Assembly (NCBI GenBank): GCA_944326055.1
Contig: CALVCT010000058.1
Location: 1 to 48,864 of the forward strand
Origin: an uncultured Erysipelotrichaceae bacterium
GTDB taxonomy: Bacteria > Bacillota_I > Bacilli_A > Erysipelotrichales > Erysipelotrichaceae
Length of the DNA: 48,864 bases
Direction of reading: 5' to 3'
Shown here: piece after piece, positions 13,672 to 23,106 of the stretch
Numbering within the stretch: the first letter of the stretch is position 1
How the letters are laid out: each line of letters starts with the position of its first letter
Translations under genes and position numbers: made by a program
Notes under the pieces: model-generated
Database searches by the model: none
Seen by the model: the letters and a program-made list of their open reading frames with translations, nothing else
Told to the model about the DNA's origin: nothing

Positions 13672-15909
13672 ATGAGTGATGATATCGTAAACAGTATCGA
13701 TCATATCAACGGTAGTCAAAAAGAACTCACAAGAGAGATCTTTTTTGATGAAGTCCGCTCTTATATCCGTAATGAAGATTCCCTTAAGCTCATCACTAAA
13801 GCCTACGATTTTGCTAAAGAGAAGCATAAAGATCAAAAACGTAAGAGTGGTGAACCTTATTTCAACCATCTACTAGCTGTCGCTTATGAACTAGCACGCT
13901 ATAAGGTCGGACCAAAGACGATCTGTGCTGGTCTTTTACACGACTGCATGGAAGATCAAGGCGTCAGTAAAGAAGAGCTGACTGAGTTGTTTGGTGAAGA
14001 GATCACTTTCTTAGTCGATTCTGTCACAAAGATAGGCGGTATCAAGTTCAAAGATGAAGCCGAATATCAAGCGGCCAATCATCGTAAGATCTTATTTGCT
14101 ATGGCTAAGGATATCAGAGTCATCCTTATCAAGTTGGCTGATAGGTTACACAATATGCGTACGCTCGATTTTCAACCACCGCATAAACAAAAAAAGATCG
14201 CTCAAGAGACTCTTGATGTCTATGCACCTATGGCTCATCGCCTTGGTATCGCTGAGATCGAACATGAGTTAGAGAATCTTTCTTTCTATTATCTTGATCG
14301 CGAACATTATGAAGAGGTCATCCATCTTCTCAATAATAAGAAATCAGAAAGAGATGAACAGATCCAAAAGATGATCAACGAGATCTCAAAGATCCTTTCA
14401 AATAATAAGATACCTTTTAGGATCTTTGGCCGTTCTAAAGAGATCTATTCGATCTATAAGAAGATGATCGACAAAAACAAGCGTTTTGATGAGATCTTAG
14501 ATCTTTTAGCTATCCGTATCATCACGAAGACAGAACTCAATTGCTATGAGATCTTAGGTTTTATCCACGCAACTTTCCATCCTATCCCAGGCCGTTTCAA
14601 GGATTATATCGCAATGCCGAAAGTCAATATGTATCAATCGTTGCATACGACGATCGTCGGCAATGATGGTGGTATATATGAAGTACAGATCAGAACGGAA
14701 GCGATGGACGAGATCGCTGAAAGAGGTATTGCAGCCCATTGGTCATATAAAGAAGGTAAAGGTAATGCGCAAGGCAAAGAACTCAGAGCGACGCAAGATG
14801 AGCTTGATTGGTTGCGCAATTTCGATGAGGACTTTTCTGATAGTGATGATCCTCAAGAATTCATGTCGACCGTTACGCATGATGTCTTCAATGCGAATAT
14901 CTATGTCATGACACCAAAAGGTCGTGTCATCGATCTAGTCCAAGGGGCAACGCCTATCGATTTTGCCTATAGGATACATACTGAAGTAGGTAATCAGACT
15001 GTCGGTGCGATCGTCAATGGCATCTTGGTACCGCTGAACACACCGCTAAAGACAGGTGATGTGATCGAAGTCAAGACCAATAAGAACTCTGAACCATCAA
15101 GCGATTGGCTCAGTATCGTCAAGACGACAACCGCCAAAAATAAGATCAAAGCCTATCTCACTAAAAAAGAGAATGAGGAGAAAGAGGCTTTAGCTAAGAC
15201 TGGTGAGCAGATCTTTAAAGAGGATATGAAACGTCGTCAGATCTTAGAAGAGGAATACACTGATCACAAAAAGATCGAAGCGCTCTATTCGTCTTTGGGC
15301 TTTTCAACGAGTTTAGATTTCTATTATGCTATCGCTTGCAAGTCTCTGAGCACGCAATCGATAGCTGAAAAACTCGTCAAGCAGAAAAAGAATGAGGTCT
15401 CAGAAGAGACGCTGAAGCAGATAACTTCTAAAGTCCAGGCTCGTCGCAAAGCTTCATCTTCAAAGACAGGTGTACTAGTAGCTGGCGATGCAGATATGAA
15501 GACTGAGCTCGCTACATGTTGTACGCCAGTCTTTTCCGATGAGATCGTTGGCTTCGTTTCACGTGGTAAAGGGATCAAAGTCCACAGAGCTGGCTGTCCA
15601 AACGCCACTAAAGATCCTAAGCGTATCATCAGTGTTTCTTGGGATGAAGAATATCATGGTAAGATCAAATATGAAGCGAATATCCGCATCTTTTCAAGTG
15701 ATAGAAACTTCTTATTAACAGATCTTGTCACATGTGTCTCACAATATAAAGCGAATCTATTAGCAGTCAATTCAAAGGTCAATAGTGATCATTTCACGAC
15801 CACGACCTCGATGACGATCATCGTCGACGACTTAGAACACCTTGAGACCATCATGACTAACCTTCGCAAAGTAAGTAGTGTCACAAGTGTTGAAAGAGTC
15901 ATCAAATAA
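13672..15909 (+). CDS. rel: Bifunctional (p)ppGpp synthetase/hydrolase Rel
   Basis: Rel makes (p)ppGpp on stalled ribosomes and degrades it otherwise. The hydrolase HD domain is intact (AGLLHDCMEDQG; DRLHNMRTLDF), as is the synthetase domain (RFKDYIAMPKVNMYQSLHTT; VQIRTEAMDEIAERGIAAHW). TGS, helical, zinc-finger (ELATCCTPV; HRAGCPN) and ACT domains follow. ATG 13672 is preferred: AAAGGAGG lies 8 nt upstream and 745 aa is close to the Bacillus length. GTGs at 13663 and 13669 are closer to the ribosome-binding site. Confidence 0.95.
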   Translation: MSDDIVNSIDHINGSQKELTREIFFDEVRSYIRNEDSLKLITKAYDFAKEKHKDQKRKSGEPYFNHLLAVAYELARYKVGPKTICAGLLHDCMEDQGVSKEELTELFGEEITFLVDSVTKIGGIKFKDEAEYQAANHRKILFAMAKDIRVILIKLADRLHNMRTLDFQPPHKQKKIAQETLDVYAPMAHRLGIAEIEHELENLSFYYLDREHYEEVIHLLNNKKSERDEQIQKMINEISKILSNNKIPFRIFGRSKEIYSIYKKMIDKNKRFDEILDLLAIRIITKTELNCYEILGFIHATFHPIPGRFKDYIAMPKVNMYQSLHTTIVGNDGGIYEVQIRTEAMDEIAERGIAAHWSYKEGKGNAQGKELRATQDELDWLRNFDEDFSDSDDPQEFMSTVTHDVFNANIYVMTPKGRVIDLVQGATPIDFAYRIHTEVGNQTVGAIVNGILVPLNTPLKTGDVIEVKTNKNSEPSSDWLSIVKTTTAKNKIKAYLTKKENEEKEALAKTGEQIFKEDMKRRQILEEEYTDHKKIEALYSSLGFSTSLDFYYAIACKSLSTQSIAEKLVKQKKNEVSEETLKQITSKVQARRKASSSKTGVLVAGDADMKTELATCCTPVFSDEIVGFVSRGKGIKVHRAGCPNATKDPKRIISVSWDEEYHGKIKYEANIRIFSSDRNFLLTDLVTCVSQYKANLLAVNSKVNSDHFTTTTSMTIIVDDLEHLETIMTNLRKVSSVTSVERVIK

Positions 15910-15918
15910 TGCTAAAAT
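15910..15918 (+). promoter_or_regulatory. Extended -10 promoter for hisS-aspS
   Basis: TGCTAAAAT, overlapping the last base of the rel TAA stop, places the start of transcription at about 15925, just ahead of the T-box leader. Confidence 0.5.
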
Positions 15919-15921
15919 GCA

Positions 15922-16128
15922 CTAAGACCACAGGGTCGAAGGACTTTCATCGAGGGAAAGAAGAGAGAAGACGGAAGCTGCAAGTCTTCCAGAATCGATG
16001 ATCGCGGACACGACTTTAGGTCCTATCTTCAAAGGATAGGCGCATCCGGCGTTAAAGGAAGAGGGCATATGTCAACATATGAACTAAGGTGGTACCGCGT
16101 ATCTTACGTCCTTAGAGGACGTTTTTTA
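15922..16128 (+). ncRNA. T-box riboswitch of hisS-aspS with overlapping Asp/His specifiers
   Basis: The invariant T-box AAGGTGGTACCGCG is at 16086-16099. The terminator ACGTCCT/AGGACGT (16106-16112/16116-16122) ends in a T-run, and its CCTT can alternatively pair with the AAGG of the T-box. Stem I is visible as CATCGA/TCGATG enclosing GAAGAC/GTCTTC (about 15948-15999). After the 3' strand of stem I the specifier region reads GACAC (16007-16011), which contains GAC (Asp) and CAC (His) sharing one C. Uncharged tRNA would favour antitermination and raise synthetase expression. Confidence 0.93.
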
Positions 16129-16145: not shown

Positions 16146-17420
16146 ATGTTACAGAGCGTCAGAGGTACATATGACATCATCGGTGAAGAATTCCAGAAAT
16201 TCCACTATGTGAACGATCTCTTTGAGCATTTTATGAAGCTCTATGGCTATGAGATGATCAAGACACCAGTGATCGAAGATACAGCTGTTTTCAAAAAAGA
16301 CAACGATACAAGTGATGTGGTCACTAAGGAGATGTTTACATTTTCAATAAATGGTAAGGATTCCCTGACTTTAAGGCCTGAGGGTACAGCTGGTGTCATC
16401 AGAGCTTTTATCCAGCATAAACTATATGCTAGGGAGTTGCCAGTCAAGCTTGCTTATATCGAAGAGATGTTCCGCTATGAGCGCCCTCAAAAAGGACGTC
16501 AACGTCAATTCAATCAATTAGGCATCGAAGTCTTGGGTGATAAGTCACCACTCATCGATGCTGAAGTCATCGCATTGGGCTATTCTTTCCTTAAGACTTT
16601 GGGCATCGAAGATATGGAAGTGCACATCAATACACTTGGTGACAGCACTTCGCGTCTAAGATATCTAGAGGCTCTAAAAGAGTATTTTAGGCCACATATC
16701 GATGAGCTATGTGCTGATTGTAAGGATAGACTTGAGAAGAATCCTTTGCGCATCTTAGATTGTAAGATAGATCACGATAAGGATGTCATCAAGAGAGCTC
16801 CAAGTATCTATGATCACTTAGAAGATGAAGCAAAAAGCTACTTCAAACAAGTATTGAGCTATCTTGATGCTTTAGAGATACCATATGTCATCGATGAGCA
16901 CATGGTCAGAGGGCTTGACTATTATACAGATACTGTTTTTGAAGTCGTCAGCACCGATAAGGATGCAGGTAGTCAAAGTACGATCTTTGGCGGCGGCCGT
17001 TATGATTCTCTGATCGAAGAGATGGGAGGCCCTAAGATGTCAGGTATAGGTTTTGCGATAGGTGAAGAAAGACTTATAAGCGCAATGGAAAGCGCAGGCC
17101 TTTTTGATGATCTATCGATAACACCTGATGTCTATGTCATCGATCTGACTTCTCAAGATAGTTTCGCACTTGAAGTAGCAGAGATGCTAAGACACAATGG
17201 TTATGCGACAGAGCTCAATTACTACAAGCGTTCTTTGAAGTCGCAATTCAAGTCAGCAGATCGTAAAAAGACACGCTTTATCATCATCATCGGAGAAGAT
17301 GAAGTCAAAGAGCGAAAAGTCAGTCTTAAAGATAAGAAAGAAGAAACACAAGAAATGGTCAAGATCGAAGACTTGATCGCGAAGTTAGATGTTTTGATGG
17401 AGGGAGATAGAGATGAATAG
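16146..17420 (+). CDS. hisS: Histidyl-tRNA synthetase
   Basis: A class II synthetase of 424 aa: QSVRGTYDI at the N terminus, LRPEGTAGVIRAF (motif 2 region), the histidine-specific RGLDYYTDTVFEV and GGGRYDSLIEEMGG, then a C-terminal anticodon-binding domain. GGAGG lies upstream of ATG 16146, right after the T-box terminator. The 3' end overlaps aspS by 8 nt, so both synthetases share the T-box. Confidence 0.97.
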   Translation: MLQSVRGTYDIIGEEFQKFHYVNDLFEHFMKLYGYEMIKTPVIEDTAVFKKDNDTSDVVTKEMFTFSINGKDSLTLRPEGTAGVIRAFIQHKLYARELPVKLAYIEEMFRYERPQKGRQRQFNQLGIEVLGDKSPLIDAEVIALGYSFLKTLGIEDMEVHINTLGDSTSRLRYLEALKEYFRPHIDELCADCKDRLEKNPLRILDCKIDHDKDVIKRAPSIYDHLEDEAKSYFKQVLSYLDALEIPYVIDEHMVRGLDYYTDTVFEVVSTDKDAGSQSTIFGGGRYDSLIEEMGGPKMSGIGFAIGEERLISAMESAGLFDDLSITPDVYVIDLTSQDSFALEVAEMLRHNGYATELNYYKRSLKSQFKSADRKKTRFIIIIGEDEVKERKVSLKDKKEETQEMVKIEDLIAKLDVLMEGDRDE

Positions 17421-19152
17421 GACACACACAAATGGTGAATTGAGGATCGAAGATGTTGGTAAGAGCGTGACGCTTTGTGGCTGGGTAGCTAAAAGACGTA
17501 ACTTGGGTTCGATCTGTTTCATCGACCTTAGAGATCGCTATGGTATAACGCAGGTCATCTTTGATGAGACGATGTCTGAGAAGATCAAAGATGTCCGTAA
17601 CGAATATGTCTTGGAAGTCAAAGGTACTGTCCAAAAGAAAGACGTTCCTAATAAGAATTTAGCGACAGGAGAGATCGAAGTCCATGTCGAAGACGTGAAG
17701 ATCCTCAATAGTGCTAAGACGACGCCGATGATCATTGCCGATAAGACTGATGCGCTTGAAGATCTAAGACTCAAATATCGTTATCTCGATCTCAGACGCA
17801 AAGCTATCTATGACAATCTTATCGTTAGGGATAAGGTCGAGACGATCACAAGAGACTATCTGCATAAACTTGATTTCATCGAAGTCGAGACCCCGATATT
17901 ATCTAAATCGACGCCTGAGGGTGCACGCGATTATCTTGTGCCATCAAGACTCTATAAAGGCAAGTTCTATGCCCTTCCACAATCGCCACAGATCTACAAA
18001 CAACTACTCATGATCGGCGGTCTTGATCGCTATTTCCAGATCGCTCGCTGCTTCCGCGATGAAGATCTTAGGGCTGATCGCCAACCAGAGTTTACCCAGA
18101 TCGATATCGAGATGTCGTTTGCGGACGAGGAAGATATCTTCCATATCGTTGAAGGATTGATGAGCGATATCTTCAAAGGCGTCAAAGATTTGAAGATAGA
18201 TGAACATTTCGAGCGTCTATCATATGACGATGCAATGCGCTATTACGGTAGTGATAAACCAGATCTACGCTTTGGTATGCGCTTATGTGATCTAGATGAA
18301 GTATTTAAAGAAACTGCATTCTCGATCTTTAAGAAGACACTTGAAGATGGTGGTCTTATCAAAGGTCTGAAAGCAGAAGGTCTTGCTGAGAAGTATTCAA
18401 GAAAAGATCTTGACCACTTACAAGAATTCGTCAAGATCTATAAGGCAAAAGCATTGGCTTGGCTAAAATATACTAGTGAAGGACTGAGCGGTAGTATAGC
18501 TAAGTTCATGAGCGACGAAGAAAAAGATACGCTCATAGCGAAGATGGATCTACATATCGGCGATATCGTCTTTATGATCGCTGATGAGAAAGGTATCGCT
18601 GATGTCGCACTTGGTGCACTACGCACAAAAGTGGCAAAGGATAACGGTCTTATCCCAGAGGATGAGTATAAGTTCGTTTGGATCACCGATTTCCCAATGT
18701 TCGAATACTCAAAAGAACAAGGTATCTATGTCGCATGTCACCATCCTTTTACAGCGCCACATGCTGAGGATGTCGATAAACTTCTGACTGATAAAGGAAA
18801 CTGTTATTCAAGGGCATATGATCTTGTGCTCAATGGCTATGAACTGTTATCAGGATCTGTGCGTATCCATGATCAAGATATGCAAGAGAAAGTCTTTGAA
18901 GCTTTAGGACTCACTAAAGAAGAAGCTAAAGAAAAGTTTGGTTTCTTCCTTGAAGCTTTCGAATATGGTGCTCCACCACACTTAGGTGTTGGCATCGGTG
19001 TTGAAAGACTAGTCATGATCTTGTGTGGTACTGACAATATCAAAGATGTCGTTGCCTTCCCTAAGACAGCTAGTGCCATGTGCCTTATGTCAGAAGCACC
19101 GAATACTGTTGATGATGCACAACTTCAAGAACTTAAGATCAAGATCGCATAA
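17413..19152 (+). CDS. aspS: Aspartyl-tRNA synthetase
   Basis: 579 aa, bacterial type. It has an N-terminal OB fold (VTLCGWVAKRRNLGSICFIDLRD), the catalytic core with FRDEDLRADRQPEFTQIDIEMSF, a GAD insertion domain, and motif 3 GIGVERLVMILCG. It is co-transcribed with hisS under the T-box. GGGAG precedes the ATG inside the end of hisS. Confidence 0.97.
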   Translation: MNRTHTNGELRIEDVGKSVTLCGWVAKRRNLGSICFIDLRDRYGITQVIFDETMSEKIKDVRNEYVLEVKGTVQKKDVPNKNLATGEIEVHVEDVKILNSAKTTPMIIADKTDALEDLRLKYRYLDLRRKAIYDNLIVRDKVETITRDYLHKLDFIEVETPILSKSTPEGARDYLVPSRLYKGKFYALPQSPQIYKQLLMIGGLDRYFQIARCFRDEDLRADRQPEFTQIDIEMSFADEEDIFHIVEGLMSDIFKGVKDLKIDEHFERLSYDDAMRYYGSDKPDLRFGMRLCDLDEVFKETAFSIFKKTLEDGGLIKGLKAEGLAEKYSRKDLDHLQEFVKIYKAKALAWLKYTSEGLSGSIAKFMSDEEKDTLIAKMDLHIGDIVFMIADEKGIADVALGALRTKVAKDNGLIPEDEYKFVWITDFPMFEYSKEQGIYVACHHPFTAPHAEDVDKLLTDKGNCYSRAYDLVLNGYELLSGSVRIHDQDMQEKVFEALGLTKEEAKEKFGFFLEAFEYGAPPHLGVGIGVERLVMILCGTDNIKDVVAFPKTASAMCLMSEAPNTVDDAQLQELKIKIA

Positions 19153-19176: not shown

Positions 19177-22100
19177 ATGTTAGGATTCACAACTAAAAGA
19201 AAGATAGATAAGATGTCACCCGAAGAGGTGACGAAGAACATCGAAGATCTCAAGATCGAGATAGCCAAGTTAGAAAGCGACTTGGCTTCTTTTGCTGAGA
19301 AAAGAGAAGAGCTGATAAAAGAAAACAAGACCAAGATCGATGAAAAGAGAGCTTATCTTGAAGATGATCGTATCATCTCGATCGAAGAGGTCAAGAAGCT
19401 CAGGTCAGCCATCAGTATCGAACGCGATAAATTCAATAGCGTATCCAAAGAGCTCAATGATCTGATATCAAAACATCATGAAAAGAAGAGCATTCTTGAA
19501 AAAGATATGGATGAGAAGTTAACGATCTTAAGCAAAGATAATGAAAAGAAGATCAAAGAGCTCAAGAAAGAGTATGATGATAAGACCAAAGATCTACAAG
19601 TCGATTATGAGGCTGAAGAAGCGGCACTGATCGATGACAGTAAGAAGACCTTATCTAAGATCAGTGAGAACTTGAAGCGCCTAGATAGCGAATATAAGAG
19701 CTTAGAGAGTGAGATCAAAGCTGAACAGACAGCGATGATCGATAACTACAATCGTCTGATCGAAGAAGAAAGTGTCAAAAAGGACGCTCTAACGAGCAAG
19801 TCTAGCACGATACACAACAATCAAAGAGCCAAACAAGAAGCTCTAGACAAAAAGCTTGATGAGCTCTTGACTAAAAACAAAGCAGCACTCGAAGAGAAGA
19901 AGAAGACATTAGATGAAGGATATGAGAAGATGAAGGAAGCATTTGATAAAGAATTAGAAAGACAAAAAGCTGAACTGTTAGAGCTTACTAAACGTAAGAC
20001 AGAGCTTTCAGGTGCTTATACTAATGCCTACAACAGCTTCGAGAAAGAGAAAGAGAGCTTGATCGCTCGTTTCAATCAAGAGAGCGAGAATATCGATATC
20101 GAAAATAAACAATTAGCTGACAATGAAAAGAAGGCCAATGATGAGCTTTTGGCGATCAAAGAATCTTTAGCTAAAAAAGAAAGTGAACTACAAGCTTTTA
20201 AAGTCACAGCTGAAAAAGAGTATAACGATCTTGAAGCTGAACTTGAAGCTAGAAGACAAGATCTCATTGCGCGTCATGAGGCTCAAAGAGCCAGTGAAGA
20301 ATCGACATTAAGACAAGCTCTAGAAGAGATGCGCAAGCGCTATGTCGAGATGAAAGAGTCTTTGACTGTCGACAAAGAAAAAGAGATCACTAAGCTCAAT
20401 GCGGACTATCGTATGAACCAAAGACGCTATCTTTCAAAGACTAAAGAGCTACGTTCGCATTATGATGCTTTAAAATCTGAATATCAGGACAAGTTGAGCT
20501 CCCTTAGGAAGGCTAATATGATACTCAAGGATGAGATCGATAATGATACACATCGCTATGAGATCAAGATGATGTCGATCAATCAACAACTGACCGATGA
20601 AGATACGAACTTCAAACGCACTATCAGTAAACTTGAAGAAGAATATGAAGCGAAAGTCGATAGTATCAAGAGTGCTTCCAAAGAACACGAAGCAACTTTC
20701 ACAAAGGAGAAAGAAGTCCTAACAAGCGATATCGAAGCTCTGTCTAAAGAAGTCGAGATCAAAGATCTCTTCTATAAAAAAGAGCTCGCAAAATATGAAG
20801 CACAGATCGCCAGTATCGCTAAGATCAAAGAGACTCGTGAGCTTAATCACGATGCTGCTCTAAAAGCTATCGATGACGAGATCTCTTTGACTAAAAAGAA
20901 GATCGAAGAAACTGAAGTCGAAAAAGAAGATAAGGTCAAAGAGTATGCTCAAAGAAAAGAAAAAGCTCAAAGTGATCTTGAAAGTGATCTTGCGAAGCTT
21001 GAAGAAGCACATCAATCAAAGATCGTCGCTCTCAATGACGAATATGGTAAATTACGCCAAGATATCGAAAGAGATCTAAGTGAGAAGATCACAGAACGCG
21101 ACGAAGTCTTCGCTAACTTCAAGAAAGCTCATGAAGAAAGACTTGTGAAAAAAGATGATGAATTCCATCTTGAAGAGAAAAAGCTCCAAGAAGAAAAAGA
21201 AGCTTTGGATATCGAGTATGAGAAAGAATACGCTGAACTCTTGAAAGAAAACGAAGTCAAGAAAGCAGCCCTTGATGATCTACGATTGAAAAAAGAAGAA
21301 GAGATCAAAGTCAAAGAAGATGAGCTGAATAGACTCATGAGCGATCATGATAATAAGGTCAAGGAACTCAAAGAAGAATTTGAAAAAGAATCAGCAGAAC
21401 TTCTATCTAAAGAGTCTGAAGATCAGGATGCTTATAGCGAGGAACTTACTGGCCTTACAGCGAAGCTTGAAGAGAAACGTTCTGATATCGTCAAGATGCA
21501 AAGCGATTATGAAGCGAAGATCCGTAACTTCAAAGAACTCATCGAGAAGGCAGAACACGATCTTGAGATCTTAGCTCAAGATCATGCCCTAGCTATCGCT
21601 GATAAGAGAAGCGAGAAGGAAGCGATATGCAAAGACTTGAGCGAGGCTTATAAGTCGATCGAAGCTAAAGTCGAGGCTTCTAAAAAAGACTACGAAGAAT
21701 ATCGTGCTCTTTTGGATGCAAAACTTGACAAAGCTAAAGAGGATCTCAATAAGGATGAGAGCGATCTTGTCATCGCTAACGAAGAGATACGTTCTTCAAC
21801 TCTATCCCAAAGCAAAAAAGCTCAAGCTCAACATGAAGCAGAACTCGATAAGAAAAGAGAAGATCTTGAGATCGAATATAAAGCTAAAGAGGCAAGAGTC
21901 AGGGCTGACCTTGATGAATTAGCCAAAGCTAATGAAGCTCTGCGTCAAAGTCTTGAAGCTAAGCTCTTAGATGTCAAACGAGCAAATAGCGATATCGACA
22001 TGCGTTATCAGAAGGCTAGAGAAGATCTACATAAGGAACTATTAGAGAGACAGGAAGCCTATGATGCAAAAAGGGCTAGTCTTGATGAAGAGTTCTTGAA

Positions 22101-23106
22101 AACAAGACGCCGCTATCAAGATGAGCTCGCAAGGCTCAGAGCTGATAATATCAAGCGTATCAAAGAACTTGAGGCACATAATGATAGCGTTAGAAGTGAG
22201 ATCTCTAAGCTTGAAGAAGATGAGAAGTTGGCAAGAGCTAGTTATGATTCAGAACTCAAGGATCTCGACAACGCTCTTAAGATCGAAGGGCAAGAGTTCG
22301 CTAAAGCCAAAGAGGCATACGCATCAGAGCTTGATGATTGTATAAGATTGATAAGTGCCCTTAAAGCTGATCATCAAACAAAGATGCAAGCAGCGCAAGA
22401 TAAGATCGAGGATCTTGAAAAGCGTAAAGCCAACTTTGAACAAGAGCACAAACGAGCTCTAAGAAAAGTCAAAGAGGAACATGAAGCAGCTTTAGCTAGA
22501 CGTCGTGCTGATCATGATGCCAAGATCAGATCTTATACGGATGCGCTCGATGCTTTAGTCATGAAGATCCATGACCAAGAAAACGTCATCAAAGAAGCGT
22601 ATCGCGTCAAACTTGATGAGTTAGCTACAAGCTTCGACGAAAAGAAGACTGAGCTCATGGAACGTCGCCTCAATATGCAAAACGACTATGACAAGCTTGT
22701 AAGTTCTTTAGAAGAAAAGATCGCTGATCGTCAAGTCGATCTAGCTTCTATCGACAAAGAGTTACAAAGAGAACTTGAGAATGCTAATAGTTCTATGCAA
22801 GATCTGCAAAGCACACATGATGAGCGCATCAAAGAGCTGATCGAAAAAGAAGAGGCACATATCGCTGAACTCAAAGACGAGAGTGAAAAACGTCGCTCTA
22901 TGATCATGAAGGAGCGTCAAGAACTCGCATCAAGAGCGAGGGCGATCAATGCTGAGATCTTGAAGATGAAAGAAGAATACAACACTAAGAAGGATGCCTT
23001 TATCAGTGATAGTCAAGATCTTCAAAAGAGCTACAGTAAGATGCTCGATGATTATAAGAGCGAAGTAGCCGCAAAAGACAGTAAACACTCTTTCTTTAGA
23101 CGCTAA
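19177..23106 (+). CDS. Giant coiled-coil protein of unknown function (1,309 aa)
   Basis: I do not recognise a family. The start is firm: AAGGAG lies 3 nt before the ATG. The protein is Lys/Glu/Asp/Leu-rich with continuous heptad-like spacing. The only proline I find is residue 15; there is no tryptophan, two cysteines and very few glycines. It therefore looks like one unbroken helical rod, roughly 190 nm if fully extended. There is no signal peptide or membrane segment; the N terminus is MLGFTTKRK and the C terminus KHSFFRR, both basic with a small hydrophobic patch. Similarity to SMC, myosin or spectrin in a search would be compositional. It may be a cytoskeletal, scaffold or nucoid-associated element (inference). 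Codon use matches its neighbours. Confidence 0.9.
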   Translation: MLGFTTKRKIDKMSPEEVTKNIEDLKIEIAKLESDLASFAEKREELIKENKTKIDEKRAYLEDDRIISIEEVKKLRSAISIERDKFNSVSKELNDLISKHHEKKSILEKDMDEKLTILSKDNEKKIKELKKEYDDKTKDLQVDYEAEEAALIDDSKKTLSKISENLKRLDSEYKSLESEIKAEQTAMIDNYNRLIEEESVKKDALTSKSSTIHNNQRAKQEALDKKLDELLTKNKAALEEKKKTLDEGYEKMKEAFDKELERQKAELLELTKRKTELSGAYTNAYNSFEKEKESLIARFNQESENIDIENKQLADNEKKANDELLAIKESLAKKESELQAFKVTAEKEYNDLEAELEARRQDLIARHEAQRASEESTLRQALEEMRKRYVEMKESLTVDKEKEITKLNADYRMNQRRYLSKTKELRSHYDALKSEYQDKLSSLRKANMILKDEIDNDTHRYEIKMMSINQQLTDEDTNFKRTISKLEEEYEAKVDSIKSASKEHEATFTKEKEVLTSDIEALSKEVEIKDLFYKKELAKYEAQIASIAKIKETRELNHDAALKAIDDEISLTKKKIEETEVEKEDKVKEYAQRKEKAQSDLESDLAKLEEAHQSKIVALNDEYGKLRQDIERDLSEKITERDEVFANFKKAHEERLVKKDDEFHLEEKKLQEEKEALDIEYEKEYAELLKENEVKKAALDDLRLKKEEEIKVKEDELNRLMSDHDNKVKELKEEFEKESAELLSKESEDQDAYSEELTGLTAKLEEKRSDIVKMQSDYEAKIRNFKELIEKAEHDLEILAQDHALAIADKRSEKEAICKDLSEAYKSIEAKVEASKKDYEEYRALLDAKLDKAKEDLNKDESDLVIANEEIRSSTLSQSKKAQAQHEAELDKKREDLEIEYKAKEARVRADLDELAKANEALRQSLEAKLLDVKRANSDIDMRYQKAREDLHKELLERQEAYDAKRASLDEEFLKTRRRYQDELARLRADNIKRIKELEAHNDSVRSEISKLEEDEKLARASYDSELKDLDNALKIEGQEFAKAKEAYASELDDCIRLISALKADHQTKMQAAQDKIEDLEKRKANFEQEHKRALRKVKEEHEAALARRRADHDAKIRSYTDALDALVMKIHDQENVIKEAYRVKLDELATSFDEKKTELMERRLNMQNDYDKLVSSLEEKIADRQVDLASIDKELQRELENANSSMQDLQSTHDERIKELIEKEEAHIAELKDESEKRRSMIMKERQELASRARAINAEILKMKEEYNTKKDAFISDSQDLQKSYSKMLDDYKSEVAAKDSKHSFFRR

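Follow-up and report, generated by a model that had tools for sequence, protein, structure and literature searches.

Results

The window, by which we mean the whole stretch of DNA analyzed (48,864 nucleotides from an uncultured bacterium whose nearest named relatives are Erysipelotrichaceae), carries on its plus strand the genes for a histidyl-tRNA synthetase (hisS, positions 16146 to 17420) and an aspartyl-tRNA synthetase (aspS, positions 17413 to 19152). Both were identified as open reading frames and overlap by 8 nucleotides; homologues of hisS were found in 58 of 60 relatives, and aspS adjoins hisS in the relatives as well. The gene order given in the initial annotation, with a T-box leader preceding hisS and aspS, was borne out. 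Directly 3' of aspS lies an open reading frame of 1309 amino acids (19177 to 23106) with a high content of K, E, D, and A, which apparently encodes a long coiled coil.

The covariance model RF00230 matched the plus strand at 15922 to 16116 with 71.8 bits (E = 6.9e-16), confirming the T-box that the initial annotation had placed at 15922 to 16128. The match spans the model from end to end (1 to 219) and scores below the curated gathering cut-off of 93, so that the leader has no entry at the gathering threshold. In the genome as a whole (1.38 Mb, 81 contigs), we counted 12 clear matches to RF00230, 5 of which were above the cut-off, plus two weak ones. The T-box sequence AAGGTGGTACCGCG (16086 to 16099), located from the sequence letters and the RF00230 match, contains the acceptor-end contact TGGT (16090 to 16093) and is followed by a competing intrinsic terminator on the same strand (ACGTCC-TTAGA-GGACGT plus a T run, 16106 to 16127); with a UGGN-bearing T-box sequence and this terminator, the leader belongs to the T-box class. 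In the serS-like and trpS-like T-boxes of this genome (genes named from sequence), the N of UGGN is C, and the hisS leader has U (16093), for a tRNA with G73. Upstream, a promoter-like site, TTGAAA-17-TAAAAT (15890 to 15918, plus strand; 10 of 12 consensus matches; shuffles, mean 0.5), lies within the 3' end of the preceding rsh (RelA/SpoT-like) gene, and its letters recur in two leaders of the same genus (L056 and L057).

The letters at 16007 to 16011 are GACAC, and the overlap of GAC (16007 to 16009) and CAC (16009 to 16011) at a two-base offset, as described in the initial annotation, can be read from them directly. We assigned the register by fitting a lower and an upper helix, separated by a loop, to 131 leaders, with the start of the lower helix varied over bases three to nine. 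In the window, the best fit paired GGGTCG (15933 to 15938, beside the specifier loop) with CGACTT (16011 to 16016) and left the loop strands AAGGACTT and TCGCGGACA, which gives GAC, one A, and then the helix. The proposed Asp specifier GAC is thus followed by a single purine (A16010), and CAC ends in a C that belongs, by this fit, to the lower helix and not to the loop. The His triplet lies two bases away from where a specifier usually sits, and it runs into the pair that closes the lower helix. The Clostridium acetobutylicum T-box of Saad et al. 2013 reportedly involves a one-base codon shift.

The lower helix was also supported by changes on both of its sides within the genus: GGGTCG/CGACTT in the window is replaced by TAAAAG/CTTTTA in L058, AACAAG/CTTGTT in L061, and CAAG/CTTG in L063. 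Of the 131 leaders, 69 gave the best fit with the lower helix beginning at base five of GACAC, and 15 with it beginning two bases further on (base seven), as the His frame would require; the fit is a simple one, and a start other than the fifth base was best in 62 leaders. A plain minimum free energy fold of stem I (z = -0.35) gave a different lower stem in which the proposed helix was absent, and the comparative fit was used instead. The AGTA/GAA motif pair was absent from the specifier loop of the window (15933 to 16016) and from the hisS-aspS leaders of families f1 and f2. GAA just upstream of the specifier was present in 1 of 60 of these f1 and f2 leaders, compared with 22 of 25 Listeria-order leaders and 18 of 20 from Bacillaceae.

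T-boxes were also present in 8 of 28 fetched regions upstream of hisS paralogues of the same order (∼25% identity), which we take to be hisZ-like. Like the window, these dedicated His leaders bear CAC, but in all eight it directly follows GAA (GAA(A)-CAC) and lies one base before the helix, the next base being a purine in seven and C in one. Their His specifier hence occupies the place that GAC holds in the hisS-aspS leaders. In addition, the N of UGGN differed from the U of the window in most of them (A in 6, G in 1, and U in 1).

We listed the tRNA genes of the genome and read the discriminators of tRNA-Asp and tRNA-His. The only tRNA-Asp found (GTC) has G73, and the only tRNA-His found (GTG) has C73, paired to G-1. 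Among relatives, tRNA-His had C73 in 16 of 16 genes (16 genomes) and tRNA-Asp had G73 in 27 of 27 genes (18 genomes), counting those of the 28 searched genomes that had a pattern match, after removal of two false matches (L142 and L183). In named genomes, the listed tRNA-His genes likewise had C73 in the 17 genomes with a match, of 20 searched. UGGU therefore fits tRNA-Asp by a U-G73 wobble and does not pair with the discriminator of tRNA-His. Of the initial proposal that TGGT suits both discriminators, the tRNA-Asp part stood and the tRNA-His part did not; the Bacillus-type tRNA-His discriminator on which it relied disagreed with the genome, its relatives, and the named genomes alike. As the dedicated His leaders also lack pairing between N and C73, the discriminator does not rule out a His reading, and we dropped C73 as proof against one.

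To follow both triplets across orthologues, we searched for HisS homologues, which were present in 232 of 247 genomes of the class and 60 of 60 Listeria-order genomes in addition to the relatives mentioned above; of the named HisS loci, the best 80 of 583 were used. Upstream regions of 188 loci (in the class, named, and Listeria-order sets, loci from part of each) yielded 140 hisS-aspS leaders with a T-box that could be scored, 131 of which were placed. They read GACAC (95), AACAC (22), GACAT (9), GACGC (5), GACAA (4), AACAT (2), and GACCC, GACGA, and GACAG (1 each). The two codons were not conserved together: GAC was present in 116 leaders, CAY in 128, both in 104, and neither in 0. CAY was lost with GAC retained in 12 leaders, including one of the same genus (G007/L062, GACGC), and GAC was lost, always to AAC, with CAY retained in 24 of 24. 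The AAC leaders (L283, L294, L300, L309, L313, L317, L318, and 17 others) comprised 23 from Bacillaceae or Caryophanaceae and one from a Listeria-order genome (L390). In the genus of the window, a pattern search found the T-box in 8 of 9 genomes, 7 of which read GACAC and the remaining one (G007) GACGC. By pattern, no T-box was found before hisS-aspS of G003 (L060), L065, and L074; in L060 and L065, the hisS start lies close behind the end of the upstream gene.

On a FastTree HisS tree, GAC changed between kept and lost 4 times and CAY 10 times. Per position, the 131 placed leaders showed 4, 0, 0, 6, and 12 changes at bases one to five and 15, 23, and 38 at the three that follow, so that the last base of the His triplet (12 changes) varies about as often as its helix neighbor (15 changes). 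All 131 read GAC or AAC and varied at neither of the last two triplet bases, A and C, and all 61 placed leaders from the class of the window retained GAC, while CAY was repeatedly lost there. Among the 116 GAC leaders, the N of UGGN was U 91 times, C 25 times, and never A; in the 24 AAC leaders it was C in 12, A in 10, and U in 2, with N = A confined to Caryophanaceae and Lysinibacillus. We also considered whether the AACAC leaders might be Asn specific, with AAC in register and N = C in 12, but the ten leaders with N = A argue against this as a general rule.

CAC might come for free if a codon were generically followed by A and C. This was compared with 69 T-boxes from six related genomes and the genome itself, from which those without a readable context dropped out. 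AC followed the codon in 95 of 116 GAC leaders, in contrast to 3 of 26 clean contexts in the other T-boxes (9 of 35 in a looser, noisier parse); for codons ending in C, the numbers were 3 of 11 clean contexts and 7 of 14 in the looser parse. CAC is thus commoner than the generic T-box context predicts, with the qualification that orthologous leaders are not independent, and the idea of a free CAC, which partly holds, is less than a full account of the AC excess after GAC.

Discussion

Our best explanation, to which we assign a probability of about 0.7, is that the leader of the window is an ordinary transcriptional T-box riboswitch of hisS-aspS that is read mainly by tRNA-Asp. We infer tRNA binding and antitermination by this leader as follows. 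Uncharged tRNA-Asp (anticodon GUC) would pair with GAC at 16007 to 16009, and its GCCA end would contact UGGU at 16090 to 16093, G73 facing U as a wobble. These contacts would stabilize the antiterminator, and RNA polymerase would then pass the terminator at 16106 to 16127 into hisS and aspS. CAC would be present because the bases after GAC are a purine A and the closing C of the lower helix. As a prediction from sequence, the Asp reading is well supported by the register fit, the paired helix changes, the comparison with dedicated His leaders, U or C at N, G73 of tRNA-Asp, and the loss of CAY. What counts against this explanation is the presence of CAY in 128 of 140 leaders, the loss of GAC with CAY kept in 24, the excess of AC, the 62 leaders with other best helix starts, the plain minimum free energy fold that lacks the helix, and the C at N in the serS-like and trpS-like T-boxes.

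The GACAC motif of hisS-aspS leaders has already been published (PMC5313534), and the earlier claim that overlapping Asp and His specifiers had been proposed for such leaders agrees with the available text of PMC4342826. PMC5313534 and PMC4342826 both cite a 2009 review by Gutierrez-Preciado et al.; as cited there, GACAC was suggested to interact mainly with aspartyl-tRNA (PMC5313534), or both tRNAs to be sensed through two alternative structures (PMC4342826). TBDB (PMC7778990) accepts more than one frame and leaves out the discriminator match when the amino acid is His. The leader of the window shares operon, GACAC, and T-box architecture with the published leaders, as far as their available descriptions go, and is probably a further example of their kind, with Asp reading predicted. 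It differs from them in lineage and in a loop that lacks the AGTA/GAA of most Listeria-order and Bacillaceae leaders. In the accessible portions of the open-access literature on hisS/aspS T-boxes, we found no report of reciprocal loss of the GAC and CAY frames.

The retention of CAY in AAC leaders, the lack of any double loss, and the AC excess fit either an ancestral dual leader or a specificity switch in Bacillaceae. One scenario, which we consider rather unlikely, is that an ancestral leader read both tRNAs and that its descendants then specialized for one or the other. The His triplet would have been dropped in Erysipelotrichales and several Lactobacillales (GACGC, GACAA, GACAG), Bacillaceae and Caryophanaceae would have dropped the Asp triplet (AACAC, often with N = A), and the leader of the window would keep the undecided state.

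A present-day leader of dual specificity, in which tRNA-Asp reads GAC and tRNA-His, by slipping two bases and opening the G-C pair with which the lower helix closes, reads CAC, appears unlikely for the window. It has operon logic on its side, since a shortage of either amino acid would switch on both synthetases, and it agrees with the prevalence of GACAC and CAY and with losses that affect either frame, never both. It has also been suggested in print for hisS-aspS (PMC4342826), and, according to a review (PMC4052509), Saad et al. 2013 described a two-codon T-box of Clostridium acetobutylicum whose overlapping codons are used by two tRNAs. In that T-box, as possibly in the window, overlapping codons share one specifier loop; it concerns Asn and Glu, with binding reportedly shown, and a dual reading in the window would concern Asp and His with a two-base shift. 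Against a dual reading, part of the His triplet falls in the lower helix, and 12 of the 140 leaders, one of them from the same genus, do without the triplet; tRNA-His has C73, with which U at N forms no pair; and the available text of PMC5313534 cites GACAC as acting mainly with Asp-tRNA. Of the proposal that one switch serves both tRNAs, the overlapping codons and the Asp part were upheld, and the His part was weakened by a CAC that is out of register, is lost in 12 leaders, and lacks pairing between U and C73.

That the leader reads tRNA-His only, GAC being incidental, is highly improbable: the 24 leaders that lost GAC and kept CAY, with N = A in 10 as in 6 of 8 dedicated His leaders, speak for it, but they come from Bacillaceae, Caryophanaceae, and one Listeria-order genome and none from the order of the window, in whose class GAC is universal among placed leaders and CAY repeatedly lost, and N = A never accompanies GAC.

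The natural variants GACGC (no His triplet), AACAC (no Asp triplet), and GACAC (both) constitute a ready panel with which existing antitermination assays would show whether one riboswitch can serve two tRNAs in hisS-aspS operons.
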